In this document: in pieces, positions 6,537 through 30,704 of the stretch
How positions within the stretch are numbered: position 1 is the stretch's first letter
Layout of the letters: every line of letters starts with the position of its first letter
From: Candidatus Abyssobacteria bacterium SURF_5
GTDB lineage: Bacteria > Abyssobacteria > SURF-5
NCBI GenBank assembly: GCA_003598085.1
Contig: QZKU01000061.1
Span: 1-36,320 of the forward strand
Direction of reading: 5' to 3'
Length of the DNA stretch: 36,320 bases
Position numbers and translations under genes: made by a program
The notes under the pieces: model-generated
What the model was told of the DNA's origin: nothing
Databases searched by the model: none
The model's input: the letters and a program-made list of their open reading frames with translations, nothing else

Positions 6537-6816
6537 AGTTCCATCTCCTCTCTCTATAAATGTGTGTTTTTTGCTTTTGTTCTAATATTAGTATGTAGCT
6601 TTTTTAAACAATGTTAAATACAGTATACCTTGGATGCGGAATGGGGGAGACGGTTTAGAAGCAGGAACTCGACTACCCTGTGCCGCTTCGATCGCGGGCC
6701 CTCAAGAGGACATCGCTTGACATCATGGATACACGGAAGTAAAATTCAACTGGAACTGCAAATGATTGAGAAATTCTCTAATAGCAGGATTTCACAATCG
6801 TCTGAAAGGATTCTTG

Positions 6817-9372
6817 ATGTTATTCGAAAAACTGCGCGCGCTGCTGCGCGCTTCCTCAGATACGTATCAGCCCGACTTCTCGGTTCTTTTCTCCAAGTTT
6901 CAGCAGATACTTAACGGAAATAATATCGTTCTGGACATCATAGCCCAGATGGAGGACAAGCTGAGCGGTGAATACGTCTTTGACATGAATTACATCCGCT
7001 CGAGCACCCGAATGATGTCTGAGGCTGTTTACAAGATTATTTATGCTCTCGCAGTGCTTTCCAACAATGCCTATCCGGAACTCTTCTCGCGATACGAAGC
7101 CATCGGGCTCGAGATAGATCGCATCATCGAAGGAGAAAGCGGTCTTCCTTCCGATATTCTCGTCCTTCCTCTGGATTCCGTCCGCGGGGACATGGAGGAA
7201 CTCGTGGGAAGTAAGGCCGCGAGACTGGGGGAAATACGGAATCAGCTCGATCTGCCTGTCCCCGACGGTTTCATTATCACCACGGCCGCGTACCGGCTTT
7301 TTCTGCAATCCAATAATCTGTGGCCGCAAATCCGCGCCTCATTTGCGCGCCGCATGAAAGGAGAAATTTCAGCCGTCGAGTATCATGAATCAATCGAGAA
7401 ATTAATCGGCGGCGCCGCGATGCCTCCAAAACTGGAGAAGGATATCGCTCATGTCCTCAGTTCTTTTTTCAAAAAGAAGGGGAAGAAATTTTCGCTTGCG
7501 GTTCGAAGCAGCGCGTGGGGGGAGGACAGTGAGGTTAAAAGTTTCGCCGGCCAATTCAAGACGCTGCTCAGCCAGGACCCCGCACATCTCCTGAGCGCCT
7601 ACAGAAAAGTGATTTCAAGTCGTTTCTCCGAGAGAGCTCTGGCATATGAGGGAGAAGACAGTATCCGCGAAGAGGCGCTCCCGATGGCGGTCATCTGCCA
7701 GGAGATGGTTTCCGCAAAGGTGTCCGGAATCATCTACAGCATTGATCCTCGAGACGGACACTCGCACAAGGTACTCATTTCCTCCCTGTACGGTCTGGGC
7801 GAGCCCGCAGTATCCGGTCGCGCCGAAATGGACCAGTTTATTGTTTCGCGTATTCATCCCTACGAGATTTGTGAGCGAAAAATTGCACGCAAGCAGCGGC
7901 GGCTGGTCCTTTTACCGAACCAGGAGATTCGCGATCAGGAGGTCCCGAAACACGAACAAGAACGCCCATCTCTTGGAGATAGCGAGATCATCTCCCTTGC
8001 TGAACATGCCCTCGCGCTCGAGCGTTTCCTGAGACAGCCGCAAGATGTGGAGTGGGCAATCGACACAGAAGGAAAATGCTGCATCCTGCAAACTCGTCCT
8101 TTGAGCCTGCACAGGCAGCGCCCCGGCAGGGGGAAAAGTCTGAACGAGAGCCTTAAGAAGTATCCCGTGCTCCTGGCCGACTCCGGACAGGTTGTACAGC
8201 GCGGCGTGGCCGCCGGAAAAGTGGTCAAAGTCTTTGAAGATGCTGATCCGAGCTCTTTTCCCCAAGGCGCGATCGCGGTAACACACTTCACGACTCCTCG
8301 ACTCACGAAAATAATCCGGAAAACGTCCGCCATAATCACCGACGTTGGCAGCCCGACCGGCCATATGGCAACCATTGCCCGCGAGTTCGGCGTGCCTACC
8401 ATCGTGGGCACCAAGGAAGCCACACGACTCCTGCAAGACGGCATGGAGATCACGGTGGACGCCGAGGAAAACAGAATTTATTCAGGAATTGTGCCCGAAG
8501 TCCTCGAATACCAGATTGAAGGCAGAGACCAATTTGCCAATCTGCCGGAGTTCAAGATTTTGCGAAAAGTGCTTAATAAGGTCGCTCCGCTGAATATGAT
8601 CGATCCGGCAAGCCCGCAATTTGCTCCCAGGAATTGCCACACTTTTCATGATATCCTGCGATTCTGTCATGAAAAAGCGGTCTGGGAGCTGATCAACCTT
8701 CATGCCTCTCAAAGACGTTTCCGCAACATCAGGTCGAGGGAATTGAAAATGGCGATTCCTCTCGGACTCCACCTTATCGATCTCGGAAACGGGCTTTCGC
8801 ATGATGTGGGATCGCATTCGGTTGACTCGGTCGATCAGGTGACTTCACTGCCAATGCGGGCGCTCCTCGATGGGCTGGCCTCTCCCGGCGCCTGGAGCAC
8901 TGAGCCACGGCCGTTGCGATTTAACGACTTCATGTCCAGCCTCACCCGTTTTTCACTCGGCGAAGCCCAGCCGCGTTATGTGGGAAAAAATCTCGCTGTC
9001 ATTTCCGACCATTATACGAACCTCAGCCTGCGACTTGGGTACCACTTCAATGTAATCGACACATACACGTCTGAGAATATCAACGACAACTACATCTATT
9101 TCCGTTTTGTCGGTGGAGTGACCGACCCGGAACGCCGGCACCGGAGAGGACTGCTGATCGAGACGATTCTCGAAAAGTATGACTTCAAAGTCATCGTTCG
9201 AAACGATCTGGTTGTGGCCAGGCTCAAAAAACGAAACCAGAGGGAGCTCCTTGAGACCCTTGTCATGCTGGGAAAGCTCATCGGCTTCACGCGTCAGCTC
9301 GATACCGAAATGGTTTCGGACAAGAGCATAGAACGATTCGCAGCCGCTTTCCTGCAGGATGTCTCCCACTAG
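6817..9372 (+). CDS. PEP synthase-like protein with a non-canonical C-terminal domain (paralogue 1)
   Basis: This 851-residue protein has four parts. An N-terminal helical region spans about residues 1-110. A PPDK/PpsA-type ATP-grasp domain (about 115-445) has AVRSSAWGED at 228-237 and GLGE. A swivelling phosphohistidine domain (about 455-565) has TGHMATIAREFGVP, with candidate phospho-His H516 and the regulatory-type Thr T514 two residues earlier. The last 280 residues are unfamiliar and replace the PEP/pyruvate TIM barrel. This C-terminus carries C607, H611, D612, R615, C617, H618 and E619, all shared with the next gene. The protein could form a phosphohistidine from ATP, but without the barrel its acceptor is unlikely to be pyruvate in the usual way. 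The start at 6817 follows a GAAAGGA site; an upstream TTG (6766) lacks one. Confidence 0.82.
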   Translation: MLFEKLRALLRASSDTYQPDFSVLFSKFQQILNGNNIVLDIIAQMEDKLSGEYVFDMNYIRSSTRMMSEAVYKIIYALAVLSNNAYPELFSRYEAIGLEIDRIIEGESGLPSDILVLPLDSVRGDMEELVGSKAARLGEIRNQLDLPVPDGFIITTAAYRLFLQSNNLWPQIRASFARRMKGEISAVEYHESIEKLIGGAAMPPKLEKDIAHVLSSFFKKKGKKFSLAVRSSAWGEDSEVKSFAGQFKTLLSQDPAHLLSAYRKVISSRFSERALAYEGEDSIREEALPMAVICQEMVSAKVSGIIYSIDPRDGHSHKVLISSLYGLGEPAVSGRAEMDQFIVSRIHPYEICERKIARKQRRLVLLPNQEIRDQEVPKHEQERPSLGDSEIISLAEHALALERFLRQPQDVEWAIDTEGKCCILQTRPLSLHRQRPGRGKSLNESLKKYPVLLADSGQVVQRGVAAGKVVKVFEDADPSSFPQGAIAVTHFTTPRLTKIIRKTSAIITDVGSPTGHMATIAREFGVPTIVGTKEATRLLQDGMEITVDAEENRIYSGIVPEVLEYQIEGRDQFANLPEFKILRKVLNKVAPLNMIDPASPQFAPRNCHTFHDILRFCHEKAVWELINLHASQRRFRNIRSRELKMAIPLGLHLIDLGNGLSHDVGSHSVDSVDQVTSLPMRALLDGLASPGAWSTEPRPLRFNDFMSSLTRFSLGEAQPRYVGKNLAVISDHYTNLSLRLGYHFNVIDTYTSENINDNYIYFRFVGGVTDPERRHRRGLLIETILEKYDFKVIVRNDLVVARLKKRNQRELLETLVMLGKLIGFTRQLDTEMVSDKSIERFAAAFLQDVSH

Positions 9373-9437
9373 CGGAAAAATCCGAGAAAAAAACCGCAGC
9401 CTCATATCTCAGGGGGAGGTTTTCCTGGTAAAATCCC

Positions 9438-12044
9438 ATGTTCCAGTGGTATAAGAAATACATTCGGGAACGGGCGAAGGAACACGAACAGCGGGCAGAA
9501 CGGCAGCTCGATGGCCTTCGTTTCCGTTATCACGCTTTCAAGAACCTGCTTATCTGCAACAATGAATTGCTCGAGCAGATGACGCGCCTCGAGATGTACC
9601 TGCGGGATTGTCGGCGGATGTTTCCCGGCCTGGCGGCCCGCACCGATCTCCTCCTGAAGCTCTGCCGTGAACTCGTCCAAAACCTGAACCAGGTGTCTGA
9701 AGGCGCGTATGGAGAACTACCACCGATCCTGCGGGCAATTGCTGTAAGGGCCTCCACACTTGCGTGCAAATTGGACCCGGGCGAACAAGTCCCGTTGATC
9801 ATCCCATTGTGCGATATTCACCTCGACCTGATCGACACAGTCGGAGGAAAAGCGGCTCCGCTGGGAACTTTTGCGAATCAATTACGTTTGCCCGTGCCGG
9901 ATGGATTTGTCGTCACCACCGAGGCGTGCAACTTGCTCCTGAAAAAAAATAAGCTGTTGCTCCGCATCCGCGACCTTCTGAGAAATCTGAACAGCGAAAA
10001 TTTTCGCCAGGTTGAAGCGGTCTCTCTCGAAGTGCAAGATATGATCCTTAAAGCGGAAATACCCGAAGAGTTGCGAGACCCCCTGGAAAGGAGCTTTCAA
10101 CAATTGCTGCAGGCCTCCAGTTCGAAGGCAATCGCCGTTCGAAGCAGCGCTGTTCCCGAAGATGGCCAACATTCCTTTGCCGGCCAGTTCACCACTGTTT
10201 TAAACGTCATTTCGGTCGAGGCCGCCCTCACAGCATATAAGGAAGTTATTGCCAGCAACTTCAACGCCACGAGTCTCATGTATCGTCTCCACAGACAAAT
10301 GGGGTTGCGGGAAGCGGACATGGCGGTTCTTTGCCTGGCTATGGCGCCTGCCCGTTCCGCCGGGATACTGTACACAGTTGACCCGAATGACCCCGACGGT
10401 GAACGCATGGTACTGTGCTCGGCTTGGGGACTGGGCGAATATCTGGTCAATGGAAGGCTTCCGGCGGATATCCTCCATGTCTCACGGCTGGACCTGAAAC
10501 GTTTCGAGCCGGTTCAACTCGCCCGCAAAGAGTTAAAGCTGGTCTGTGATCCCGATCGCGGCGGCACACGGGAAGAGCCTGTCCCGACCTGCGACTCGCT
10601 TCGCCTATCAATCAATGAAAACGAAATGAGGACCCTTTGTGAATACGGACTGAAAATAGAAAAGTATCTCGGCTATCCGGTGGACATCGAATGGGCGATT
10701 ACGCAGGTTGGAGACATTATCGTTCTCCAAGGGCGGAGGCTGCAGCTCAGGAGCGGCGGCAGGGAATATTCTCAAACGGCATTGGAGCGCCTCAAACCGC
10801 TCGTCGCAAAGGGAATCACGGCCTCCAAAGGCCAATGCAGCGGCAAGACCGCAATCATCGCTCATCAGAGGGAAATTGACTCGATCGAACCCGGCAGTAT
10901 AGTTGTTGCTCGCGAGAGCTTCCTCAGTCTGGCCAATCGCGTCAGCTTCATTCGCGGAATAGTTCTCGAAAAGGGGAATCCTCTGGAACATCTTGCCTGT
11001 ATCGCTCGTGAATACCGGATTCCGATGATCGTCGGAGCGGCAAATATTACCGAGATGCTCGCGAACGGTCAGTCGATCACTCTCGATGCGGATGAATGCA
11101 CCATCTACGAGGGAGAAGCAGACCTTCTGAACCAATCAGCCGCCGTTTTTCCCGCCACTCGAGAAGAAGCCGAAGCCTCGATCCCGGACCTGAAGGAATT
11201 CAGACATCTGATTTTTTCATTGAACCTTCTTGATGTGAGGGATCCAAATTTTCAGATGTCCTCCTGCAGGTCCGTTCATGACGTCGTCCGGTTCTGTCAC
11301 GAGCAAGGCATCCAAACCATGTTTCAGGTGAATGACGGGGAATATGTAAAAAATAAATCCTACGTCTCCCGGCTCGATAACCCTATCCCATTCCACGTCG
11401 ATATCATTAATCTCGGCGGGGGTTTTGCCGTTTCCGGACACCCCCGGAAAGTAAAAATTGAAGAGATCACCTCGATTCCTTTCCTTGCTCTATGGAAAGG
11501 AATAAGCCATAAAGGCATCAAGTGGAGCGGCCCTCCGCCGCGGGTAAATCTCGGCGCCTTCAGTTCCGTTCTCGGGAATACGGCCATTGATGCGGCACGG
11601 TCGGGGCGCCCGCTCGGAAGCAGAAATTATGCGATGATTTCTCGCGATTACATGAATCTCAACTCGCGCCTTGCATACCATTTTGCTTTGGTCGATGCTT
11701 TGTGCAGTTATAATTCCGCGGAAAATTACATCAACTTCCGGTTCAAGGGGGGAGGCACAAATCTCCAGAGGCGAAGACGCCGCGTGATCTTTCTGGCGAG
11801 GGTCCTGGAGTCGCTCGGGTTCTTTGCGCACGTCGACGACGACCTGCTCAATGCCTTCATCAAAGATCTTCAACTGCGGCAAATGGAAGAAAAACTGGAT
11901 ATGGTCGGCCGGCTTCTCGGCTGCGCCCGTCTTCTCGATATGGCCATGGAGGACGAAGCTTCAATGGAATGGTTCATCCACGCCTTTTTGAGTGGGAATT
12001 ATGCCTTCGCGCCTGAGTTCGAGGGAGAAGAATCCAAGACGTAA
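9438..12044 (+). CDS. PEP synthase-like protein with a non-canonical C-terminal domain (paralogue 2)
   Basis: This 868-residue protein has the same architecture as the preceding gene. It has an N-terminal helical region, an ATP-grasp domain with AVRSSAVPED (233-242) and GLGE, a swivelling domain with H518 in LEHLACIAREYRIP, and the same unfamiliar C-terminal domain (C610, H614, D615, R618, C620, H621, E622, then NYINFRFKGGGT). It differs in key places. The position of the regulatory Thr is Leu516, and the ATP-grasp end motif reads LQGRRL instead of the usual LQTRP. The two copies are clearly diverged, so the duplication is old. The gap of 65 bp to the upstream gene suggests one operon. The Shine-Dalgarno (GGGGGAGG) is unusually far from the ATG. 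Confidence 0.82.
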   Translation: MFQWYKKYIRERAKEHEQRAERQLDGLRFRYHAFKNLLICNNELLEQMTRLEMYLRDCRRMFPGLAARTDLLLKLCRELVQNLNQVSEGAYGELPPILRAIAVRASTLACKLDPGEQVPLIIPLCDIHLDLIDTVGGKAAPLGTFANQLRLPVPDGFVVTTEACNLLLKKNKLLLRIRDLLRNLNSENFRQVEAVSLEVQDMILKAEIPEELRDPLERSFQQLLQASSSKAIAVRSSAVPEDGQHSFAGQFTTVLNVISVEAALTAYKEVIASNFNATSLMYRLHRQMGLREADMAVLCLAMAPARSAGILYTVDPNDPDGERMVLCSAWGLGEYLVNGRLPADILHVSRLDLKRFEPVQLARKELKLVCDPDRGGTREEPVPTCDSLRLSINENEMRTLCEYGLKIEKYLGYPVDIEWAITQVGDIIVLQGRRLQLRSGGREYSQTALERLKPLVAKGITASKGQCSGKTAIIAHQREIDSIEPGSIVVARESFLSLANRVSFIRGIVLEKGNPLEHLACIAREYRIPMIVGAANITEMLANGQSITLDADECTIYEGEADLLNQSAAVFPATREEAEASIPDLKEFRHLIFSLNLLDVRDPNFQMSSCRSVHDVVRFCHEQGIQTMFQVNDGEYVKNKSYVSRLDNPIPFHVDIINLGGGFAVSGHPRKVKIEEITSIPFLALWKGISHKGIKWSGPPPRVNLGAFSSVLGNTAIDAARSGRPLGSRNYAMISRDYMNLNSRLAYHFALVDALCSYNSAENYINFRFKGGGTNLQRRRRRVIFLARVLESLGFFAHVDDDLLNAFIKDLQLRQMEEKLDMVGRLLGCARLLDMAMEDEASMEWFIHAFLSGNYAFAPEFEGEESKT

Positions 12045-12083: not shown

Positions 12084-12767
12084 ATGGATGATATACTCGC
12101 CAAAACAGACAATGTCTGCGGAAAAAAAATTTTTGCCGTGGGCGATATCCACGGCCAATATGAGAAACTCATCAACCTCATGTCTGTCTTGCCATGGAAC
12201 CGGGAGCAAGACATCCTGGTATTCCTCGGAGATTATATCGACCGAGGAAAGAAATCAAAAGAAGTGGTCGAGTACCTGATCGAACTGGAGAAAAAAGGCG
12301 GCAAAATCGTCTTTCTTCTGGGAAACCATGAAAAACTGCTTACCGATTATTATTATTCCGGAAGCGACTACGATTTGAAACTCTGGCGCTCCTTCGGCGG
12401 ATGGCAAACCATTCAAAGCTACACTCGCGGCGCCGGGGTGTGGGGAAGACCTTCGTTCCTCCCGCATGCCCACCTCGATTTCTTCAGGAGATTGCTCCCC
12501 TACTACGAAACTGACGATTATATCTTTGTTCACGCGGGCCTTCGGGAGGGGATTCCTCTGGACGAGCAAAAACTGGATGACCTGCTCTGGATTCGAAGGA
12601 GCTTCGTTGAGGGCAATCACTCGTTCTCGAAAACGATCATCTTTGGCCATACTCCCGTGAGGACTCCCTACGTCTCATCCGATAAAATCGGCATTGACAC
12701 CGGAGCAGGCCAGGGAAACGTACTGACGGCGGTCGAGCTGCCTTCTCTCAAGTTCTACCAGGCGTGA
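12084..12767 (+). CDS. PPP-family serine/threonine protein phosphatase (PrpA/PrpB-like)
   Basis: This 227-residue metallophosphoesterase has the complete PPP signature set: GDIHG (20-24), GDYIDRG (49-55), GNHE (80-83), a VHAGL motif near 151 and FGHTP near 188. These residues bind the two metal ions and the phosphate. The size matches bacterial and lambda-type phosphoprotein phosphatases. It lies 39 bp after the second PEP-synthase-like gene and is convergent with the next gene, so it is probably the last gene of that operon. The context raises the possibility that it dephosphorylates one of the PEP-synthase-like proteins. That link is inference only. Ser/Thr, Tyr or diadenosine-tetraphosphate specificity cannot be decided from sequence. 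Confidence 0.88.
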   Translation: MDDILAKTDNVCGKKIFAVGDIHGQYEKLINLMSVLPWNREQDILVFLGDYIDRGKKSKEVVEYLIELEKKGGKIVFLLGNHEKLLTDYYYSGSDYDLKLWRSFGGWQTIQSYTRGAGVWGRPSFLPHAHLDFFRRLLPYYETDDYIFVHAGLREGIPLDEQKLDDLLWIRRSFVEGNHSFSKTIIFGHTPVRTPYVSSDKIGIDTGAGQGNVLTAVELPSLKFYQA

Positions 12768-12789: not shown

Positions 12790-13614
12790 TCACGTTTCCA
12801 CATTTTGATAGCGATAGTTCAGTCCCACCTCATTCTTGACTTCTTTCACGCCGGCCGTCGAACGTGCTATTTCGCCGATCCTGTCTATCACTTGCTGAGT
12901 AAGCGCCTTTCCGAAAACCGTAACCGCGCCGTCCTTTGCCTTGACGATAACGTCAATATTCTGCGTGGCGGAATCGGAGGCAATAGCCGCTCTCACCAGA
13001 CTGCTCAGAGCGAGATCGTCCATTATCCTCTGAGACTCGGGCGTTGTCTTGAACGGCTCCCGCTGAACGGCATATTGAATCATATTGCTGATAAAGTGGA
13101 TGTTTTCCGTCTCGAGATTAAAGACGATATCATACAGCTCCGGCGATCTCCAGTCCACGCGGTAAAGAAATTTCGTCCACTTGAATCGCTCCTTATCGAT
13201 CTTCTCAATATATTTGACGGCTTCATCATGGAGCACCTGCTGGCGCTCCATGACAAACTTCACTCGCAGTTGCATGGGCGCGACGATGCGTACTCTCAGA
13301 ACGTGAGGAACCCCCTTCAGCAGAAAATGGCCGGCATTCCCGTGATAGATGATGTTGTCGCCGCCTGCGTACTCGCAAAGAACCGCCTGAAAGAAAGCCA
13401 GATACCGCTCACGCTCATAGGTGAATCGTTTCAAGCCCGACGGCCGCTTCAGAATCGCGTTACGCAGCTTTTCCTCTACCACGCCGTATTTCTTTGACGA
13501 CATTTCAACAATCTCTTCCCGGCCGACGCACCGATAATTCAGTTTCTGCGACAATTCCTCCGCCAGCATCATGCCGCCGCTGAATGTTCCCCGAGAAATT
13601 GTTATGATCGCCAT
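12790..13614 (-). CDS. Cytidylate-kinase-like protein fused to a BON domain
   Basis: This 274-residue protein has two parts. The first 195 residues resemble the cytidylate-kinase-like family: the N-terminal strand and loop ITISRGTFSGG (4-14), an LNYRCVGREEIVE segment, and an R-rich lid region with LRVRIVAPMQLRVKFVMERQ. The loop SRGTFSGG departs from the strict GxxxxGKS/T P-loop, as is usual for this subfamily. Residues about 205-270 form a BON domain (DVIVKAKDGAVTVFGKALT ... GVKEVKNEV), normally a phospholipid- or envelope-associated module. No signal peptide is present, so the BON part would be cytoplasmic. It follows the response regulator gene on the same strand and is probably the operon's last gene. 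Substrate unknown. Confidence 0.75.
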   Translation of the reverse strand: MAIITISRGTFSGGMMLAEELSQKLNYRCVGREEIVEMSSKKYGVVEEKLRNAILKRPSGLKRFTYERERYLAFFQAVLCEYAGGDNIIYHGNAGHFLLKGVPHVLRVRIVAPMQLRVKFVMERQQVLHDEAVKYIEKIDKERFKWTKFLYRVDWRSPELYDIVFNLETENIHFISNMIQYAVQREPFKTTPESQRIMDDLALSSLVRAAIASDSATQNIDVIVKAKDGAVTVFGKALTQQVIDRIGEIARSTAGVKEVKNEVGLNYRYQNVET

Positions 13615-13693: not shown

Positions 13694-14095
13694 TCAGGAA
13701 CCGGGCTCTTTTCTTGCTGCTTGTTCGATGCTGCTTGCGGCTTTTTCTATGACTTCTCGAAGATGGCTGATTTTGAATGGCTTCGCGATGAAGTCGAATA
13801 CTCCGCTCTGAAGGGCTTCCCGGGCGGTTTCAACAGTGGCGAATCCGGTGATAATGACGACGACGGTATCCGGCCACCGCTGTTTGGCGAACCGGTGGAT
13901 TTCCATCCCGTCGACGTTCGCCATTTTCAAATCGGTCACCACAATGTCAAACCGCTTTTCCTGCAGTCTCTTGAGCGCCTGTCTACTGTCGATAAAGCTT
14001 TCGACCGCGTACCCCGCTTTTTCCAGAGACGGCTGCAAGCGAGCCCCCACTATCGCCTCATCATCCAGAACCATTATTTCCAATTGTCTTGCCAT
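13694..14095 (-). CDS. Single-domain response regulator (CheY-like)
   Basis: Starting at MARQLEIM, this is a 133-residue receiver domain with a short C-terminal helix. The acidic pair in VLDDE, the phospho-acceptor Asp in IVVTDLKM, Thr in VIITGFA and Lys in IAKPF are all present. No DNA-binding or enzymatic output domain follows, so it would act through protein-protein contact or as a phosphorelay intermediate. The TDLKMANVDGMEI and TVETAREALQSGVFDFIAKPF segments resemble receivers of NtrC-type regulators that have lost the rest. It shares strand and likely operon with the histidine kinase at 15952-17547. A longer in-frame start (14158) is possible, but the chosen one fits the receiver fold. 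Confidence 0.88.
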   Translation of the reverse strand: MARQLEIMVLDDEAIVGARLQPSLEKAGYAVESFIDSRQALKRLQEKRFDIVVTDLKMANVDGMEIHRFAKQRWPDTVVVIITGFATVETAREALQSGVFDFIAKPFKISHLREVIEKAASSIEQAARKEPGS

Positions 14096-14167
14096 GATAC
14101 ATACCCCGCATCCCTTCTTCCAAGCAATTAACGCTGCACTGCCCTCACGATCAGTCATCTCTCGGCA

Positions 14168-14944
14168 TCAATGCGGCTCCTTTTTTTTCGAACCGAAGAT
14201 CAAGCCCATGAAGATGCCGGCAGCCATGGCGATGAGGATCGACAAGATGCCGTACACGGCCGGATGCTCAAATGCAAGCGCCGAGACTTTCTCCGGCAAG
14301 CCCACCTTGACGACAGTGAGTTTGCTGGATGAGTTGGATGAAAATTCCCGATCGTTGAAACAGAATAGTTGTACCCGATATTCTCCCGCTGGAATGTTTG
14401 CAGGTATCGGGATCTCTGCCAATAAATGCTTTTCACCGGTTTCGGTCGGCTCCAAATTGATGGAACTCGGAGAAGTCCTGTAAAGACCGGCCTCCTCCTT
14501 GAGCTTGAGGAATTCCGGGAACAGCTCGTCCAACTGAGACTGAGCATGCTCCACCGTGACACCCGCGCGCAAGGCCTCATAGCCGAGGCCATGCTTCTCA
14601 AGAACCTCTCCGGGCGCCAGGCTATCGAGCGGATCGACGGAAGAAAAAAGAAAATATGTTTCCGGCGCGCCTTTTATTGTCGCGGTGCCGATGTTCATCC
14701 ATAGCGGGCCGACTTTTCCCTTCTGATTCAAGGGATGATCTTTTCTCTCACTCGATACCACCAGAGCCGCCTGGCAACCGGCAGGAATAAACGCCTCGGC
14801 GGTTATAGTGGTCCCATGGTAAAAAGAAGAAATCTCGATCCGGTCCTTCGAAATCGCCACCTCCGGCTCGGCGGCCATGACATGACCGGCATTCCACCAG
14901 CAAGCGAGGGCAGCCGCCATAACCAGAGAGATCGTGCTTTTCAT
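14168..14944 (-). CDS. TIGR02186/Alph_Pro_TM-like membrane-anchored protein
   Basis: This 258-residue protein has an N-terminal signal peptide (STISLVMAAALACWWNAGHVMAA), a periplasmic beta-rich domain with a SFYHGTTITAEAFIPAG segment near residue 40, and a C-terminal transmembrane helix (about 228-250) ending in KKKEPH. The arrangement and the YHGTT motif match the TIGR02186 family, which is regularly encoded next to TauE/SafE permeases, as here. The family is thought to be an accessory subunit of the sulfite/sulfonate exporter, but a mechanism is not established. The first ATG at 14959 overlaps the TauE stop; MKST at 14944 is the more natural signal-peptide start. Confidence 0.8.
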   Translation of the reverse strand: MKSTISLVMAAALACWWNAGHVMAAEPEVAISKDRIEISSFYHGTTITAEAFIPAGCQAALVVSSERKDHPLNQKGKVGPLWMNIGTATIKGAPETYFLFSSVDPLDSLAPGEVLEKHGLGYEALRAGVTVEHAQSQLDELFPEFLKLKEEAGLYRTSPSSINLEPTETGEKHLLAEIPIPANIPAGEYRVQLFCFNDREFSSNSSSKLTVVKVGLPEKVSALAFEHPAVYGILSILIAMAAGIFMGLIFGSKKKEPH

Positions 14945-14958
14945 GAGTGAGCCCGGCA

Positions 14959-15891
14959 TCAGTGGCCCCCTTTCACGGAAAGCAGAATCGACGGTTGCAT
15001 AAGCAACTCTCCCAGCATCTTCAGCATAACCACGAGTACAATGCTGGCAAGCAGAATCTTTAACTGGTCCGCTTTCAGTCTCTTGCTGATCCGGGCGCCC
15101 AACTGCGCTCCCAGAGTCGAGCCGATCAAAAGAAGAAGAGCAAGCATCAGATCAACCGTCTGATTGACGTAGGCTTGCATGAAGGTCACGTTGATGCAGG
15201 TAAAAAGTATCTGGAACAGGCTGGTGCCCACTACAACGTGCATCGGCATCCGCAGCATGTATACCATTACCGGTACCATAATGAAGCCGCCGCCCACCCC
15301 CATGATGGCCGCCAAAATTCCCACAAGTGCGCCGAGGCCGACAGGCATCAGAAGCGACATCGTAACGCCCGATTTGACGAACTGCGTCCGCCATGGCAGC
15401 GACTGATTCAATCTCGTAAACCACGACACTTGATCCGACGCCTTCGTCTCTATATCCTTGAGACGCCCGCCGCGCAGGCTGCGCAGACTCTCCTGAAACA
15501 TGTAACTGCCGACAACACCCAGCATCACCACGTACGTTATCTTGATGACGAAATCGGCGTTCCCCAGGGCTCTCAGGATTTTGATCAACTGCACCCCGAG
15601 TGTTCCCCCCGCGACGCCGCCGACAAGCAGATAGATTCCCATTTTGAAATCCACATTGCCCATTCGCCAGTGCGCGTAGGTGCCGGAAGAGGAGGCCGCC
15701 ACAATCTGATTCGAATCAGAAGCGGCGGCAACCGTGGGAGGAATACCAATCATGATAAGCAGCGGAGTCAGGAGAAAACCGCCGCCCACTCCGAAAAGAC
15801 CTGAAAGAAAACCAACCAGCCCGCCAAGGCCGACCAGCAAGAAGAGGTTGATGCTGGCGCCCGCGATTGGAAGATACAGAAAAGCGCTCAT
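14959..15891 (-). CDS. TauE/SafE-family anion permease
   Basis: This 310-residue integral membrane protein has about eight hydrophobic segments and the two Gly-rich repeats typical of the TauE/SafE (DUF81) family: LVGFLSGLFGVGGGFLLTPLL near residues 24-44 and LVGILAAIMGVGGGFIMVPVM near 188-208. Members export sulfite, sulfoacetate or other organosulfur anions, or take up related anions. The direction here cannot be read from sequence. The next gene encodes the usual TIGR02186-like partner, with start and stop overlapping. A histidine kinase gene lies 60 bp upstream on the same strand, which suggests that the exporter may be controlled by, or be part of, a signalling operon. Confidence 0.9.
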   Translation of the reverse strand: MSAFLYLPIAGASINLFLLVGLGGLVGFLSGLFGVGGGFLLTPLLIMIGIPPTVAAASDSNQIVAASSSGTYAHWRMGNVDFKMGIYLLVGGVAGGTLGVQLIKILRALGNADFVIKITYVVMLGVVGSYMFQESLRSLRGGRLKDIETKASDQVSWFTRLNQSLPWRTQFVKSGVTMSLLMPVGLGALVGILAAIMGVGGGFIMVPVMVYMLRMPMHVVVGTSLFQILFTCINVTFMQAYVNQTVDLMLALLLLIGSTLGAQLGARISKRLKADQLKILLASIVLVVMLKMLGELLMQPSILLSVKGGH

Positions 15892-15951: not shown

Positions 15952-17547
15952 TTATCGACTGATCTCCTGTATTCCTCCTGCACCCGTTTCAGCCCCGCGG
16001 CTCGAATCCGGGCTGAAGCAGGGCAGGTAAACACTGAATGTTGAACCCTTTCCAACCTCGCTCGAAACCATAATTTTCCCGGTGTGCTTCTTGATAATGC
16101 CGAAGCACACCGAAAGCCCCAGGCCCGTCCCTTCATTGATGTTCTTGGTGGTGAAATACGGGTCGAAAATCAACTGGAGATGTTCTTGCTTGATGCCGAC
16201 CCCCGTGTCGATTACGTCGATCTTCAAAAGTCCTACATGCGTGTCGCTTATGACCAGGCGTAGCTTGCCTCCCGAAGGCATGGCTTGTATGGCGTTGGTC
16301 AACAGATTCAAGAACACCTGCTGCAAATTATTCCTGTTGCCGTTTACCACCGGAACGACCGGAGGATAATCCTTTTCCACCGTGATCCCGTTCAGGTTCA
16401 TCTGATTTTGGAGCAGGCGCAAGATGTCCTCGATTACCGAAGTAATGTCCAACTGCTCGAATGCGTCCGGCTTCACACGGGTGAAATGCAGAAGCTCCTT
16501 TACCGTGCTGCTCGCCCGGTCCCCTTGCTGCATGATCTCTCCCAGAAGACGCCTCTTCTCTTGATTGTCAAGGCCGTCATAGTTCTCCAGGATGTATTCC
16601 GCGGTAATATTTATGTTGTTTATGGGATTGTTAAGCTCATGCGCAACACCGGAAGTGAGAAGGCCTATGGCAGCCACTTTGTGAGATTGAATTAACTGGT
16701 CCTGTTTGATCTCGATTTCCCTGATCATCTTGTTGATAGCGACGGCAAGATTCGAAAACTCATCGCGGTAGCGACGCGCAGGGGTGATAGGGGAGTAATC
16801 GCCCGTCGCTATGCGTTCCGCATACGCAACAAAACGCCAGAGAGGCCTGAGCACTCTCCGTCCCAAAAAATAGGTGTTAAACGCAAAAAAACAAAATAAG
16901 AACACGAACGAATAAATATGCACTTTCCGCGAGAGAAGGATCATCTTGTCGAGAGCCCTTTTTTCCTCCTGCATCAGGTGCTCGGCGAAATTCACTATCT
17001 CCTGCCCATTTCTGCGAACTTCCGCTTCGGCCTGCTTCTTCAGCGGAGAAGAATCGCCGCCGGATGAAAGTTCCGATTGCCGAAGCTTCAGCAGTGAATC
17101 TTCATACTCCTTCAGGCGGGGCAAAATGATTGAAAACCCCTTTTCCCCCATCACTCCCTCCAGACCCTCCGCATTCTCCAAAAGCACCTGTCTGGCGTTC
17201 GCAATATTCTCCAATGCCTCGTCCATGTTAGTTCCATAAAGAAAGAAATTCTTCTCGAAGCGACGGGCCTGCTGTATCTCAAAAAGATAACTGTTGGAAA
17301 TCTCCAGAAAACGAACCTTGTGCTCTATGAGGTATGTGGTAATGAGGAGTGACATCGCAACGCCGAAAAAAATGACAAAGGATACGGCCACGGCGACATA
17401 AATCTGCATCCGGATCGAGAACTTTGGACGCTTTTGAAGCGCCTTTAAAGCGACATCCGTGGGCGTCTCTTTTCGATCGGCGCCGCTGGCCCACAAGGCA
17501 GGATTGGACAATTGAGCCTCGGCAACTCTGTCAGGACTGTTCTGCAT
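15952..17547 (-). CDS. Membrane sensor histidine kinase (HAMP, HisKA, HATPase)
   Basis: This 531-residue kinase has two membrane segments (about residues 49-73 and 208-228) flanking an extracytoplasmic helical sensor domain of about 135 residues. A HAMP region (229-282), a HisKA domain with phospho-acceptor H303 in GVAHELNNPINN, and a HATPase domain follow, with N box near N418, DTGVGI (447-452) and GTGLGLS (473-479). The coiled-coil-like sensor region contains YGTNMDEA and lacks a recognised ligand-binding fold. It heads a minus-strand run with TauE, the TIGR02186-like gene, a lone receiver gene and the kinase-BON gene. The receiver at 13694-14095 is a plausible partner. Sensing of a sulfur compound is inferred only from the TauE neighbour. 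Confidence 0.93.
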   Translation of the reverse strand: MQNSPDRVAEAQLSNPALWASGADRKETPTDVALKALQKRPKFSIRMQIYVAVAVSFVIFFGVAMSLLITTYLIEHKVRFLEISNSYLFEIQQARRFEKNFFLYGTNMDEALENIANARQVLLENAEGLEGVMGEKGFSIILPRLKEYEDSLLKLRQSELSSGGDSSPLKKQAEAEVRRNGQEIVNFAEHLMQEEKRALDKMILLSRKVHIYSFVFLFCFFAFNTYFLGRRVLRPLWRFVAYAERIATGDYSPITPARRYRDEFSNLAVAINKMIREIEIKQDQLIQSHKVAAIGLLTSGVAHELNNPINNINITAEYILENYDGLDNQEKRRLLGEIMQQGDRASSTVKELLHFTRVKPDAFEQLDITSVIEDILRLLQNQMNLNGITVEKDYPPVVPVVNGNRNNLQQVFLNLLTNAIQAMPSGGKLRLVISDTHVGLLKIDVIDTGVGIKQEHLQLIFDPYFTTKNINEGTGLGLSVCFGIIKKHTGKIMVSSEVGKGSTFSVYLPCFSPDSSRGAETGAGGIQEISR

Positions 17548-17781: not shown

Positions 17782-19128
17782 TTACTCCGGCAGATCGATT
17801 CCCAGCCGTTTCATCTTGCGCCAGAGCGTAGTCTTGTGAATCCCGAGCTCATGGGCGGCGGCGGTGCGATTCCAGTTGTTGCGCTGGAGGCAGTTGCGGA
17901 TGAATTGCGCCTCGATCTCGCGGAAATTGAGATCCAATGGACTCGCGATGGCCTTCTCCAATTCCGGTCGCAGGTATTGCGGCAAGTGTGCCGGCAAAAT
18001 CATGTTGCCGCGGCACAACACGAAAGCGTGCTCGATGATATTTTCCAGTTCGCGCACGTTTCCCTGAAAGTCGTGATTCATGAGGATCGCGAGCGTATCG
18101 GGTGAGACGCCCGCGATCTCCTTCCCGCGAAGCCGGTTAAAGCGGGCGACAAGGTGGTCCACCAGGAGCGGAACGTCTTCCATCCTTTTTCGCAAGGGCG
18201 GCAAGGAGAGTTTCACCACATTGATGCGGTAGTACAAGTCCTGGCGGAACCGGCCGCTTGCCACCAACTGAGTCAGGTCCTTGTTCGTTGCGGTGACGAC
18301 CCGCACGTTTGCGGATACAGACTGAGTCGAGCCAAGCGGCTCATAAATCCGCTCCTGCAGCACGCGCAGCAATCTCACCTGCAGCGCAGGCGAAACATCC
18401 CCGATCTCGTCAAGAAAGATTGTGCCGCTGTCGGCAAGTGCAAACCTGCCCGGCTTGTCCTTCTTGGCGTCTGTAAACGCGCCCGCCTTATAGCCGAACA
18501 GCTCCGACTCGAGCAGCGTGTCCGGCAGGGCGCCGCAGTTGACCGTGATCATTGGTTTCTTGCGGCGGTGGCTCAAGCTATGAATCGCCCGCGCAAAAAG
18601 CTCCTTTCCCGTTCCACTCTCCCCCTCGAGAAGGACAGTGCTGTCGCTTTCCGCAATTTCGGGCATGATGTCGAACAACTCCTGCATTTTGTGATTCTTG
18701 CTGATTATATCGGCGAACGTGTATTTGCGGCCGATCTCCTTTCGAAGATCCTCGACAACACTCAGATCCCGGAAAGTCTCCACTCCGCCAATCGTTCGCC
18801 CGTCGGCGCCCTTGAGTAAGGCGGTTGAAATGCTTATGGGAATGCGCTCGCCTTCCGCCGTAATGATAAACACCGCCTTGTTGACGATTTGCTGGCCGCT
18901 CTCCAGCGTGTGGCGCAAGGCGCAACTGCCCTCGCAAATGCTGGCCTTGAATACGTCGCAGCATTTCCGCCCAATGGCTTCCTGACGAGGAATGCCGGTT
19001 ATCTCCTCGGCGGCTCGATTGAATGAGGTAATCTTCCACTCACCGTCAACCGTAAAAACGCCGTCAGCAATGCTGTCAAGAATGATGTCGCGCTCTTCGC
19101 TTCGCTTTATATGATTCTTGTATTCCAT
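17782..19128 (-). CDS. Sigma-54-dependent activator with cysteine-containing PAS domain (Orp-cluster regulator type)
   Basis: This 448-residue enhancer-binding protein has three parts. An N-terminal PAS domain (about 10-125) contains C56, C57, C65 and C69. The AAA+ domain (140-375) has Walker A GESGTGKE (169-176), Walker [11 protein letters not shown] (235-244) and arginine-rich [11 protein letters not shown] Fis-type helix-turn-helix lies at 405-445. The sigma-54 contact loop reads GAFTDA (216-221) instead of GAFTGA, a variant seen in other activators of this kind. There is no receiver domain, so the signal probably enters through the PAS cysteines (redox, metal or Fe-S). It is divergent from the NifX/Orp operon, whose sigma-54 promoter and upstream dyad lie in the shared intergenic region. 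The relation resembles DVU2106 in Desulfovibrio. Confidence 0.9.
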
Positions 19129-20717: not shown

Positions 20718-21653
20718 GTGGACCCGAGGAAGGCCACCTGTGGAACCGGCGAAGGAAAGGGAAGGCTTCTGAATATTCTGGAGAAAAAAGGTGTCAGGGT
20801 TGCGGTTGCCAGCGGCAAAGGCGGGACCGGGAAGACCACTATCGCGACAAACCTTGCCGCCTGCCTGGCTCAGCAATGGCTGCCCGTGTTCTACGTTGAT
20901 TGCGACGTCGAAGAGCCGAACGGACACATATTTTTGCTGCCCGAGATCACCAAGACGCATGCCGTGGGTGTACCCGTGCCCGAAGTACATGAAGAATTGT
21001 GCAGCGGCTGTGGACTGTGCGGAAAAACATGCCAGTTCAGCGCGATTATCGTCATCGACAAGCAAGTGCTGACGTTCCCCGAGCTTTGCCATGGCTGCGG
21101 CGGATGCGCTCTCGTGTGCCCGGAGAAGGCAATCGAGGAGAAGCAGCGGGAAGTCGGTCAGATTCGCATGGGCATATCAGGATCCCTCGGATTTCTCGAC
21201 GGAAAGATGCGAGTGGGCGAGGCGATGTCGGCTCCGCTCATTCGGGCCGTGAAGGAGAACATACCGGTAAAGAGCATCGCTATTATCGATGCGCCGCCAG
21301 GAACGTCCTGTCCCGTCATCGAGGCTGTAAAGGACACCGATTTCGTGCTCCTGGTAACGGAGCCGACCCCGTTCGGTTTGAACGATCTTGTTCTGGCGGT
21401 CGAGATGGTTCGCGAGATCGGGTTGCCGCTCGGCGTAATCATAAACCAAAGCGACATCGGAACCGATGAGACGCTGAAATATTGCGAGGCCGAACAGATT
21501 GCTGTGCTTCTCCAACTCCCTCACGACCGCCAAATCGCCCAAGCGTATTCACAAGGGCATCTGGCCGTGCAAGCACTGCCATGGTTCAGAGGCCGCATGG
21601 CGGAAATAGCGAATTACATTTTATCACTGGATAAAGCGGAAAATCTCAGATGA
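20718..21653 (+). CDS. MinD/Mrp-type P-loop ATPase with inserted ferredoxin domain (1)
   Basis: This protein of about 311 residues has Walker A SGKGGTGKTT (32-41), a deviant-Walker D motif VDCDVEEPN (60-68), then two 4Fe-4S motifs (C95, C98, C101, C105 and C124, C127, C130, C134), followed by IIDAPPGTSCPVIEA. This is the COG1149-type 'MinD superfamily ATPase containing an inserted ferredoxin domain'. In orp clusters these ATPases likely load or position the metal cofactor. The GTG start at 20718 is tentative: the P-loop strand is at residue 26, so a shorter protein is possible, but no better start codon with a ribosome-binding site is evident. The stop overlaps the next gene (ATGA). Confidence 0.88.
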   Translation: MDPRKATCGTGEGKGRLLNILEKKGVRVAVASGKGGTGKTTIATNLAACLAQQWLPVFYVDCDVEEPNGHIFLLPEITKTHAVGVPVPEVHEELCSGCGLCGKTCQFSAIIVIDKQVLTFPELCHGCGGCALVCPEKAIEEKQREVGQIRMGISGSLGFLDGKMRVGEAMSAPLIRAVKENIPVKSIAIIDAPPGTSCPVIEAVKDTDFVLLVTEPTPFGLNDLVLAVEMVREIGLPLGVIINQSDIGTDETLKYCEAEQIAVLLQLPHDRQIAQAYSQGHLAVQALPWFRGRMAEIANYILSLDKAENLR

Positions 21654-22579
21654 AACAACTCGTGGTTCTCAGCGGCAAAGGAGGGACGGGCAAGACCAGC
21701 CTCGTCGCTTCCTTTGCCGCGCTGGCGCAAAGAAAAATATTCGCCGATTGCGACGTCGATGCGGCCGACCTGCATCTGGTGGTAGGCGCCCGCATCCGGC
21801 ATCGGGAGCTCTTCCGCAGCGGGAAGAAGGCCCGGATTCTGTCTGTAAAATGCACCGAATGCGGCGAATGCGAGCGCGTGTGCAGGTTCGACGCGGTCAA
21901 AAAGAACGGCGTGGTGCCGGCCTGTTTCCATATAGACCGAATAAGTTGTGAGGGCTGCGGCGTTTGCCTGCAGGTTTGTCCTGCCGATGCCATTGTTCTG
22001 GAGGAGGTAGTCAGCGGAGAGTGGTTTGTCTCCGAGACCCGTTATGGGCCAATGACGCACGCGAAGCTCGGAATAGCCGAAGGAAATTCCGGAAAACTGG
22101 TCTCGCTGGTGCGAAGCCAGGCGCGCGGTATCGCCCTCAAAGAAGGGCTTAATCTGATAATCATTGATGGGCCGCCGGGTATCGGATGTCCGGTAATTGC
22201 ATCTATCACCGGGACTGATTTGGTTCTGGTTGTGACCGAGCCGACGCTCTCAGGATTGCATGATCTCCGCCGGGTGCACCAGCTCGCGAATCATTTCAAA
22301 ATCAGAACCGTCGTCTGCATTAACAAATTCGACCTGAATCCGGAGATGTCGACCACAATTGAAGATGCCTGTCGAGCCGACGGAATCGAAGTGATCGGGC
22401 GCATCCCCTACGATCGCATCGTAACGGAAGCGCAGGTTCATTTCACGAGTGTGATCGAATATTCCAACGGCTCCGTATCGGAAGAAATCAAGAGGATCTG
22501 GAAGAGAGTTGCTCAGATACTTGACGCAGACGAGGGCCAGAAAAAACTTTCCGGCCCCCTTGTTCAGCACGGAGAATAA
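21650..22579 (+). CDS. MinD/Mrp-type P-loop ATPase with inserted ferredoxin domain (2)
   Basis: This 309-residue paralogue of the preceding ATPase has Walker A SGKGGTGKTS (8-17), DCDVDAAD (33-40) and two 4Fe-4S motifs (C68, C71, C74, C78 and C100, C103, C106, C110), then IIDGPPGIGCPVIAS and LVVTEPTLSGLHDL. The start is clear: ATG overlaps the stop of the upstream gene, and the P-loop strand begins at residue 4. Paired ferredoxin-MinD genes are a hallmark of orp-type operons, and the two proteins may form a heterodimer. Electron transfer to or from the bound clusters is inferred from the domain. Identity of the assembled cofactor is not visible. Confidence 0.92.
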   Translation: MKQLVVLSGKGGTGKTSLVASFAALAQRKIFADCDVDAADLHLVVGARIRHRELFRSGKKARILSVKCTECGECERVCRFDAVKKNGVVPACFHIDRISCEGCGVCLQVCPADAIVLEEVVSGEWFVSETRYGPMTHAKLGIAEGNSGKLVSLVRSQARGIALKEGLNLIIIDGPPGIGCPVIASITGTDLVLVVTEPTLSGLHDLRRVHQLANHFKIRTVVCINKFDLNPEMSTTIEDACRADGIEVIGRIPYDRIVTEAQVHFTSVIEYSNGSVSEEIKRIWKRVAQILDADEGQKKLSGPLVQHGE

Positions 22580-22597
22580 ATTTTCAGGAGGAAAAGA

Positions 22598-23491
22598 ATG
22601 GAAGCAACTGAGTGCGGAACATGTGGAAAAGACGACTGCTCCGCAAAGACGCAGAAAAAAGATGAGGACACCAAGGATTTCCTTGACCGCCAGGCGCTCC
22701 AAAAACGGATGTGCAAAATCAAACACAAAGTGGTCGTTCTTTCGGGCAAAGGAGGCGTCGGCAAAAGCACCGTCGCCGTCAATATGGCGATGTCGCTGGC
22801 GCTCGCCAAAAGGAAGGTCGGCCTGCTGGATGTCGATGTGCACGGACCAAGCGTCCCGACGCTGCTCGGACTCGAGGGCTACCGGCCGAACGTTGTTGAT
22901 GGCACAATCTATCCGACGCTCTTCGAAGATAAACTCAAGGTCATGTCGCTTGGCTTTTTCCTTCCGCGGCACGATGACGCCGTTATCTGGCGAGGGCCGG
23001 TGAAGATGGGACTGATCAAGCAGTTCCTGCGGGACGTCGAGTGGGGGACTCTGGACTACCTGGTGATAGATTGCCCGCCCGGAACGGGCGACGAGCCGCT
23101 CTCGGTGGTGCAATTGATCGAGGACGCCTCCGGCGCCGTTATCGTGACCACCCCACAGCAGGTTGCGCTTGCGGACGTCAGAAAATCCATCTCGTTCTGC
23201 CGGACCGTGAATCTGCGCGTGATCGGCGTCATCGAGAACATGAGCGGATTCATCTGCCCCACCTGCGGCAGCCGCCATGAGATATTCAAGTCGGGTGGCG
23301 GTCAAAAAATGGCTGCCGAGATGGGCGTCCCGTTCCTCGGAAAAATTCCGATCGACCCGCTAGTGGTGACGGCGAGCGACGACGGCCAACCCTTCTGCCG
23401 CAGGTTTGCCGGGACGCAGACCGCTAAAGCGTTTGAGGAGGTAATTCATCCCATATTGGCTATGGGGGATGTGCAGAGCGTCAAAGCTTGA
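22598..23491 (+). CDS. Mrp/NBP35-type Fe-S carrier ATPase
   Basis: This 297-residue Mrp/ApbC-family ATPase has Walker A SGKGGVGKST (49-58), LLDVDVHGPSVPTLLG (76-91), VIDCPPGTGDEPLS (156-169) and a C-terminal CPTC (C220, C223) that binds a bridging Fe-S cluster in the dimer. An N-terminal extension contains C6, C9 and C14, as in NBP35-like members that carry a second cluster. A strong Shine-Dalgarno (AGGAGG) precedes the ATG, 18 bp after the upstream stop. It has no inserted ferredoxin, unlike the two previous ATPases. It probably transfers Fe-S or Mo/Cu-type clusters to client proteins of this operon. Confidence 0.93.
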   Translation: MEATECGTCGKDDCSAKTQKKDEDTKDFLDRQALQKRMCKIKHKVVVLSGKGGVGKSTVAVNMAMSLALAKRKVGLLDVDVHGPSVPTLLGLEGYRPNVVDGTIYPTLFEDKLKVMSLGFFLPRHDDAVIWRGPVKMGLIKQFLRDVEWGTLDYLVIDCPPGTGDEPLSVVQLIEDASGAVIVTTPQQVALADVRKSISFCRTVNLRVIGVIENMSGFICPTCGSRHEIFKSGGGQKMAAEMGVPFLGKIPIDPLVVTASDDGQPFCRRFAGTQTAKAFEEVIHPILAMGDVQSVKA

Positions 23492-28947: not shown

Positions 28948-29244
28948 ATGCGAGACGTTTTTGCCCCTCGAAAATCTCCGTTCAGCCGGCGCAATCTGAC
29001 CCCTTGGTTGATTCTCCTTCTCATATCTGCGTTTCTTCTCGGCAATCTTCATCTCATTTTCGACCATACATCACATAAGAAGGAAACCTGCCCCTTCTGC
29101 AGCTTTCAGAGTTGTTCCGCCGCGATCAGCCCCGATCATTCAGATGAATGTCCGGTTGCTGCCGTTTTCTATCCAGTTCAAACGCGAGATTCCGTTCGAT
29201 CCGGTTTTCTGCCGAGCGAAGCCTCCCGAAGCCCGCCGCTCTAA
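28948..29244 (+). CDS. Small membrane protein with CPFC motif
   Basis: This 98-residue protein has one hydrophobic helix (about 19-40, WLILLLISAFLLGNLHLIF) followed by HTSHKKETCPFCSFQSCSAAIS. The cluster of two histidines and three cysteines just after the membrane segment could bind zinc or copper. I cannot assign a family with certainty; it recalls small DUF2946-like proteins that accompany metal genes. A TTG start five codons upstream is possible. It precedes the porin gene by 89 bp and shares its strand. It may act in periplasmic metal capture or sensing. Confidence 0.5.
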   Translation: MRDVFAPRKSPFSRRNLTPWLILLLISAFLLGNLHLIFDHTSHKKETCPFCSFQSCSAAISPDHSDECPVAAVFYPVQTRDSVRSGFLPSEASRSPPL

Positions 29245-29333
29245 TTTTCTCTTCCCTTAACCTCTTTTTTCAGACGCAGTGGCCAATCATCTCCCAATTC
29301 ATGCGGGTGATGTTTCTGAGACAGGAGCCAGAT

Positions 29334-30704
29334 ATGAGGACCGGCATTCTCTTTCTTCTCGTGATGATACTCTTTTTGCCTCCTGCCCGGACGCTTGAGG
29401 CGGCACAAGATTCTGATCTCGAGGCGCTCAGGGGTCAGGTGCAGGAACTCCGGAATGCGCTGGAACAGTTTCGGCGCCAACACGACCAGGAGGTCGATAC
29501 GCTTGAACAGAAGATTCAGGATTTGACGGGACAACTGGAAGCCGAGCGGGCGGTGCGGGCGGAGGAGCCCGACATCGTATATGAGGAATTTTACGAGCCG
29601 CCGCCCGTTTATTCGCCGACCGCGTCGGCCCAGAGTCTTTCCCTGCAAAGTTTCAACCCCGACATCTCGGTTATAGGAGATTTCCTCGCCCAGTACACAA
29701 GCCATGAAAACGAAGGGGACCGGCCGGATGATGAGTTCATCTTCAGAGAACTCGAGGTTAATTTCTCCGGAGTGCTCGATCCATTCGCCCGCGCCGATGT
29801 TACCATTGCGGTCGAGAAGGAATTCGAGGAGCATTCCCATGAGGAAGAATCTCACGAACACGATACCCCTGGGGCCGCGGCCCACGAGCACGGATTTGCG
29901 ATCGACCTTGAAGAGGCGTATCTGACCGCGCTCACGCTTCCCTACGGCCTGCAGGCGCGGGCAGGCAGGATGCGGGAGGAATTCGGCAAGGTGAACCCGC
30001 TCCATCTCCACGCGCTGCCGTGGGTCGACTATCCACTGATGATCCAAAACTACTTCGGCGGCCACGGCCTCATCGGCGACGGATTCGAAGTGAGCTGGCT
30101 TGCGCCCACCGACCATTACCTTGAGTTGGTGTACGGTGTATTCAATAATAGCAACCAGTCCTCATTCGCCGGCGAGGACTACGACGATTTCGCTCATCTC
30201 GTCCACATGAAGAATCTTTTCGAGATCAACGAGTCGACCACATTCGAACTGGGGGCGACTGCGGCGACCGCCCCGAATGACGAAGGGCACGGCGGCAGCA
30301 GGACGTGGCTCGAGGGGATCGATCTCACGCTCAGGTGGCTTCCGCCGCAACGGGCGCTCTATCACGGCCTGACCTGGCAGACCGAGTTCCTGTTGTCGCA
30401 AAAGGATAATGAAGAGCGCGGAGAGCAAGACACGTGGGGCATGTATTCTTCGCTCGGATACCGGTTTGCTCGTCGATGGGAGGGCGCGCTGCGGTATGAC
30501 TATTCCGAATTCCCCGATTTCGAAGAGTTCCACGAGAAAGGATATTCCGCCTATCTGACGTTTCTGCAAAGTGAATACGTGTTCTGGCGATTGGGCTACA
30601 TGTTCATCGATCGCAATTTCGCCGATCCGCTGGATGAAGATGAGCATCTGCTCTGGGTCCAGTTGAATTTCGGGCTCGGGCCGCATCGCGCCCATGAATA
30701 TTAA
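29334..30704 (+). CDS. Outer-membrane porin-like protein with His-rich loop
   Basis: From MRTGILF, this 456-residue protein has a signal peptide (1-23), a coiled-coil region (27-75), and a beta-barrel domain ending in an aromatic-rich strand. Residues 167-186 are a His/Glu-rich loop (seven histidines, e.g. HSHEEESHEHD), which is typical of zinc- or nickel-binding surface loops. No TonB box or plug domain is seen, so this is a diffusion-type porin rather than a TonB-dependent receptor. The start has an AGGAG site at 29323. It is cotranscribed with the ZnuA- and ZnuB-like genes, so zinc passage across the outer membrane is the best guess. Confidence 0.72.
   Translation: MRTGILFLLVMILFLPPARTLEAAQDSDLEALRGQVQELRNALEQFRRQHDQEVDTLEQKIQDLTGQLEAERAVRAEEPDIVYEEFYEPPPVYSPTASAQSLSLQSFNPDISVIGDFLAQYTSHENEGDRPDDEFIFRELEVNFSGVLDPFARADVTIAVEKEFEEHSHEEESHEHDTPGAAAHEHGFAIDLEEAYLTALTLPYGLQARAGRMREEFGKVNPLHLHALPWVDYPLMIQNYFGGHGLIGDGFEVSWLAPTDHYLELVYGVFNNSNQSSFAGEDYDDFAHLVHMKNLFEINESTTFELGATAATAPNDEGHGGSRTWLEGIDLTLRWLPPQRALYHGLTWQTEFLLSQKDNEERGEQDTWGMYSSLGYRFARRWEGALRYDYSEFPDFEEFHEKGYSAYLTFLQSEYVFWRLGYMFIDRNFADPLDEDEHLLWVQLNFGLGPHRAHEY

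Follow-up and report, generated by a model that had tools for sequence, protein, structure and literature searches.

Replacement of the acceptor domain is already known among dikinases that carry a swiveling phosphohistidine domain, as in rifampin phosphotransferase (RPH), HpeHI and PpsAB. Rifampin phosphotransferase (PDB 5HV1, 5FBS) combines an ATP-grasp and a swivel module of the kind found in PEP synthase with a domain for a non-pyruvate acceptor. In the aryl dikinases HpeHI, CreHI and PpsAB, the modules are split over two chains (PMC12167813). In Desulfovibrio, Korte et al. (2014) described a gene cluster (DVU0251-0245 and Dde_0597-0605) in which insertions cause nitrate resistance (PMC4001038). 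The cluster encodes a TauE protein, a hypothetical protein, a PtxB-like protein, a histidine kinase, a receiver (REC) protein, a protein with PPDK_N and mobile domains, and a phosphatase. Individual insertions in the TauE, hypothetical, REC and PPDK-like genes were each confirmed to give nitrate resistance, and the authors proposed leaky thiosulfate transport (PMC4001038).

We analyzed a 36,320-nucleotide stretch of DNA (the window) from Candidatus Abyssobacteria bacterium SURF_5. It contains two adjacent genes for PEP-synthase-like proteins, P1 and P2. Like the gene for the PPDK_N and mobile-domain protein in the Desulfovibrio cluster, they are accompanied by genes for TauE, a histidine kinase, a receiver and a phosphatase. 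Both proteins keep the front half of a dikinase and end in a domain that we could not match to any characterized family.

Domain organization of P1 and P2

P1 (851 amino acids) is encoded on the forward strand at 6817..9372, from an ATG at 6817, preceded by an AGGA-type ribosome site, to a stop at 9372. An in-frame TTG at 6766 is an alternative start that would add 17 amino acids, and a candidate sigma70-like promoter (TTGACA-17-TAAAAT, an 11/12 match to consensus only) lies at 6717..6745 on the same strand. P2 (868 amino acids) follows on the forward strand at 9438..12044. Both frames are intact, and the proteins are 33% identical over their full length. P1 begins with a helical domain without a Pfam match (residues 1-112; 6817..7152, forward strand), followed by Pfam-defined ATP-grasp (PPDK_N; residues 128-436; 7198..8124) and phosphohistidine swivel domains (PEP-utilizers, PF00391; residues 481-551; 8257..8469), both on the forward strand. 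The corresponding Pfam domains of P2 span residues 133-440 (9834..10757, forward strand) and 483-553 (10884..11096, forward strand). The PPDK_N matches of the two proteins had E values of 7.5e-81 and 9.2e-75. The preliminary description of this DNA, which had read the genes as tandem PEP-synthase-like paralogs with ATP-grasp and swivel domains, was correct in this respect.

The residues expected for phosphoryl transfer are present. P1 retains K133, R230, E236, D237, E412, Q425 and R427 of the ATP-grasp domain, and their equivalents are retained in P2. H516 of P1 (codon at 8362..8364, forward strand) aligns with the catalytic histidine of PEP synthase, and the phosphohistidine of P2 is H518 (10989-10991, forward strand). 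The PEP/pyruvate barrel does occur elsewhere in the source genome, in an ordinary PPDK and in an EI-like protein. The genome also encodes a 1123-residue protein (locus L115, 2987-6355, reverse strand) that combines PPDK_N with a swivel domain at its C-terminus and lacks the novel domain. PADLOC gave no defense-system match for P1 or P2, and a search for plasmid-borne spread gave no match.

Beyond about residue 555, the Pfam search found no domain in either protein. The novel C-terminal domain, about 285 residues long, comprises residues 570-851 of P1 (8524..9369, forward strand; alignment A7) and 11157..12041 of P2 (forward strand). Single-sequence and profile searches of this part against PDB sequences, Pfam and NCBIfam gave only chance-level matches. 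An AlphaFold2 model built from 79 sequences (mean pLDDT 84.8) shows mixed alpha/beta structure rather than a barrel. Foldseek comparison of this model with the PDB and with viral models gave no match below E 0.001; the best PDB fold match (E 0.028; Tll0839 and DR_1245, with low TM-scores) was not counted as evidence. The full-length model (pLDDT 83.9) resembles PEP synthase and related dikinases, as the front part predicts. The domain that the preliminary description could not place remains without a match in Pfam, NCBIfam or the PDB, whether by sequence or by predicted fold.

The possibility that P1 and P2 are ordinary PEP synthases with a diverged C-terminal barrel is hardly credible. It is true that the top whole-protein matches are PEP synthases. 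However, the scores against the PEP synthase equivalog model TIGR01418 (331.4 and 280.2 bits) are far below its cut-off of 739.75, and coverage stops at residue 570. There is no match to PF02896 (PEP/pyruvate barrel) in either protein, the predicted fold differs from a (beta/alpha)8 structure, and hhalign of the C-terminal profile against the barrel of the source genome's own PPDK gave a probability of 0.7%. These results rule out a degenerate PEP/pyruvate barrel. Scores against the models for rifampin phosphotransferase (NF041857; 228.4 and 201.5 bits, cut-off 999) and pyruvate phosphate dikinase (TIGR01828; 50.4 and 35.8 bits, cut-off 843.45) were also below threshold.

All three C-terminal motifs reported previously were found in both proteins; in P1 they include C-x3-HD-x2-RFCHE (residues 607-619; 8635..8673, forward strand) and the stretch NYIYFRFVGG...RRHRR (residues 758-777; 9088..9147, forward strand). 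Ten residues are invariant in 72 full-length proteins: H611, D612, H618, E619, H743, D748, R763, R777, D797 and D829. In a diverse set of 23 sequences (A3), the invariant polar residues are Asp612, His618, Tyr733, His743, Arg777, Asp797 and Asp829; Cys607 and His611 come close to invariance, and several sequences have Gln in place of Glu619. The suggestion that a Cys/His/Asp/Glu set forms a metal or catalytic center is therefore only partly supported, since the cysteine and the glutamate vary in the wider family. The conserved set is as rich in Arg and Tyr, and could just as well bind a ligand that is anionic or phosphorylated. The results do support the absence of the barrel, its replacement by an unrelated domain, and the intactness of the ATP-grasp and swivel catalytic residues in P1, P2 and most relatives.

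Conservation and pairing within the family

The C-terminal domain was confirmed at 209 places in public genomes. Among the matches listed it lay in long open frames, and shorter frames were also present. The 79 loci that were retained are mostly of Desulfobacterota type, with others from Zixibacteria, Latescibacterota, Ignavibacteria and further groups. The family is large, with up to 12 copies per genome.

Compared with the nearest relative, the C-terminal part is under purifying selection (pN 0.13 and 0.17, with pS about 0.8). Between P1 and its relative at locus L026 (Ca. Abyssobacteria SURF_17), pN was 0.13 in the C-terminal domain, 0.12 in the swivel domain and 0.30 in the ATP-grasp domain, so that the C-terminal and swivel domains are the least changed. 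Because of the 209 places and the purifying selection, the observation exceeds chance.

In a tree of the family, the P2-type proteins (second of a pair) separate from those of P1 type. Most of the 114 family proteins examined have a complete set of catalytic positions: 104 keep all 11 in the ATP-grasp domain and 110 keep all 13 in the swivel and C-terminal domains. In five first-of-pair proteins (L073_8, L077_5, L081_8, L092_3 and L094_9), 6-10 of the 11 ATP-grasp residues are gone, but 13/13 of the swivel and C-terminal positions are retained. This pattern indicates that the unit of swivel and C-terminal domains is what selection keeps. For four of the five (L073_8, L077_5, L081_8 and L094_9), a P2-type gene with an intact ATP-grasp lies directly 3'; for L092_3, the set contains no P2-type gene. 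Two other genes are altered. L077_10, which shares its locus with a tandem pair, has Pro in place of the phosphohistidine as well as ATP-grasp changes, and at L159 (5218-7789, reverse strand) a family gene that adjoins TauE and Usp genes is split across two open frames.

Gene neighborhoods and sulfate respiration

Genes for anion transport and signaling lie beside the pair in the window. A PPP-type metallophosphatase gene, which recurs after the tandem pair, follows P2 on the forward strand (12084..12767). On the reverse strand are genes for a Cytidylate_kin2-BON fusion protein (12790..13614), a recurrent neighbor in several lineages; a single-domain response regulator (13694..14158) that keeps its phosphorylation residues; an Alph_Pro_TM/TIGR02186 membrane protein (14168..14959); a TauE/SafE (TSUP) anion transporter (14959..15891); a histidine kinase with HAMP, HisKA and HATPase domains (15952..17547); and, next to the kinase, a PAS-sigma54 activator without a receiver (17782..19128). 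No receiver gene lies directly downstream of the P1-P2 pair in the window; the closest one is on the opposite strand, at a distance of 1.6 kb. Further along the forward strand are three consecutive ParA/MinD-type ATPase genes, two of them with ferredoxin-type 4Fe-4S domains (20718-23491), a gene for a 518-residue protein in which Pfam recognized no domain at E 1e-5 (29148-30704), and zinc-type uptake genes for a ZnuA-like binding protein and an ABC-3 permease (30724-32672).

Similar neighbors recur in other genomes. TauE genes were found within 10 kb of 37 of 59 family copies in 14 genomes, compared to 3.0 expected if genes are assumed to be placed uniformly along each genome. Counting neighbors within 1.5 kb, among related and hence non-independent loci, 64 of the 72 P1-like proteins (those outside the P2-type and tandem-first clades) had a receiver, 57 had TIGR02186 and 54 had TauE. 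By the same count, tandem-first genes had a histidine kinase in 12 of 20 cases and P2-type genes a PPP phosphatase in 14 of 22. A single-domain receiver gene is directly 3' of 60/154 family genes, and this receiver keeps its phosphorylation residues (D32, D33, D76, T104 and K126). Usp genes, genes for CBS proteins and genes for symporters of the sulfate or citrate type also occur nearby. The literature searched for TIGR02186 and for PEP-synthase-like proteins yielded nothing of use.

As far as sampled, the family is confined almost entirely to dissimilatory sulfate or sulfite reducers. Among 148 genomes of one phylum, 56 had both the domain and dsrA, 4 had the domain only (all 62-80% complete), 18 had dsrA only and 70 had neither (Fisher p = 1e-19, ignoring relatedness). 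In a broad sample of other phyla, outside the window's own family, the domain was present in 3 of 6 genomes with dsrA and in 0 of 51 others. Sulfate or sulfite reduction does not depend on the domain, since 18 dsrA genomes lack it. The source genome contains aprA, and its dsrA start is cut off at two contig ends (L162 and L163, with 97 identical bases), with the remainder missing from the assembly. Two related genomes likewise have the dsrA start at contig ends and the rest missing. With qmo genes assigned by domain content and gene order, one genome (G022) has the order sat, an aprB-sized open reading frame, aprA, qmoA-, qmoB- and qmoC-like genes, TauE and a family gene; in another (G041), aprA and qmo-like genes are followed by a family gene. 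The context of sulfate reducers, transporters and two-component proteins was not part of the preliminary reading, and the literature searched held no description of the domain or its tie to sulfate respiration.

The Desulfovibrio nitrate-resistance cluster probably contains a member of the family, DVU0246 (2235 bp), which we liken to it by size and context and whose C-terminal domain we infer from these. DVU0542-0545, considered as another Desulfovibrio counterpart, was ruled out because its transporter is of the PSE family (PMC10102598).

Proposed activity and comparison with known dikinases

Since the barrel is absent and the catalytic residues are intact, the natural inference is ATP-dependent phosphorylation of the histidine followed by transfer to a non-pyruvate acceptor at the novel domain. 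We consider this core, which was also the gist of the preliminary interpretation, quite probable. ATP would phosphorylate H516 or H518; as with PEP synthase, the products would be AMP and Pi. The swivel domain would then carry the phosphoryl group to the C-terminal domain, where it would pass to an acceptor other than pyruvate. The acceptor would most likely be a protein partner, either a single-domain receiver or a TauE-type transporter assembly, and P1 and P2 would probably function as a pair. Such an enzyme could switch or energize sulfur-oxyanion transport under two-component control. We give a probability of roughly 0.4 to this whole reading, a dikinase family that phosphorylates a protein partner of a signaling or transport system and thereby controls sulfur-oxyanion transport. 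A more far-reaching version appears rather unlikely: a phosphotransfer system of sulfate respiration, with swivel dikinases working partly as catalytic and acceptor pairs, that phosphorylates receivers or TauE-type transporters and gates or drives sulfur-oxyanion uptake and release. Several points weigh against this reading. The receiver and histidine kinase may do no more than regulate operon expression, the pair in the window has no receiver immediately 3' of it, the neighbor counts come from related loci, and 18 dsrA genomes lack the domain. The nitrate phenotype, too, may be that of another relative, as DVU0246 was matched by size and context and not by sequence.

The chief alternative has a small molecule as acceptor, as for rifampin phosphotransferase and phenylphosphate synthase, with the C-terminal domain phosphorylating a soluble metabolite, perhaps an imported organic or sulfur anion. 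This is a serious contender, although we would bet against it. Small molecules are the substrates of relatives that combine the same modules with another acceptor domain (PMC4844700, PMC12167813), the conserved Arg, His and Tyr residues suit anion binding, and the genes are tightly linked to anion transporters. Yet the neighbors are signaling and transport genes, with no recurrent dedicated downstream catabolic enzyme, and up to 12 copies per genome is a number more in keeping with a set of regulators than with a single metabolic step. It seems improbable that catalysis is beside the point and that the proteins are regulators or scaffolds with the ATP-grasp as a nucleotide sensor only. The ruined ATP-grasp of some first-of-pair copies would be in keeping with such a role, but these copies retain the phosphohistidine, most adjoin an intact second copy, and the catalytic residues are complete in the great majority of family members. 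The enzymes might also work in reverse and make ATP from AMP, with Pi or PPi supplied by sulfate activation (Sat, Apr) and with the C-terminal domain serving a phosphorylated donor. PPDK is reversible, and the near-confinement to sulfate reducers and the sat-apr-qmo adjacency in one lineage point the same way. This is nonetheless very improbable, as it leaves the transporter, receiver, kinase and Usp neighbors unexplained.

The near-confinement of the domain to sulfate-respiring bacteria, usually near anion-transporter and signaling genes, suggests that it may be an overlooked part of the control of sulfur-anion use. It is large, conserved and multi-copy, and because it is missing from Pfam and NCBIfam, family proteins score as relatives of PEP synthase and may well be annotated accordingly. 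The genome paper of one sulfate reducer lists four pyruvate-water-dikinase genes (PMC4046663), which may include family members. If the family controls sulfur-anion transport, it would help to explain the nitrate resistance caused by insertions in a Desulfovibrio PPDK-like gene, would be relevant to souring control, and would open the regulation of electron-acceptor uptake in sulfate reducers to testing.

P1 and P2 represent a further case of acceptor-domain replacement within the swivel-dikinase group. They share with PEP synthase (EC 2.7.9.2; PDB 2OLS) the order of ATP-grasp domain and swivel histidine, with 28% identity over about 470 aligned columns, and differ from it in the missing PEP/pyruvate barrel, the extra N-terminal helical domain and the other C-terminal fold. 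In rifampin phosphotransferase, the swivel histidine is C-terminal and the acceptor domain is in the middle (PMC4844700), whereas the swivel domain of P1 and P2 is central; the rifampin-binding domain was not among the best 50 Foldseek PDB matches of the novel domain. HpeHI, CreHI and PpsAB differ from P1 and P2 in chain layout, acceptor domain and their aromatic substrates. Their two-chain organization may nevertheless serve as a precedent for a P2-type protein that feeds a P1 partner with a dead ATP-grasp.
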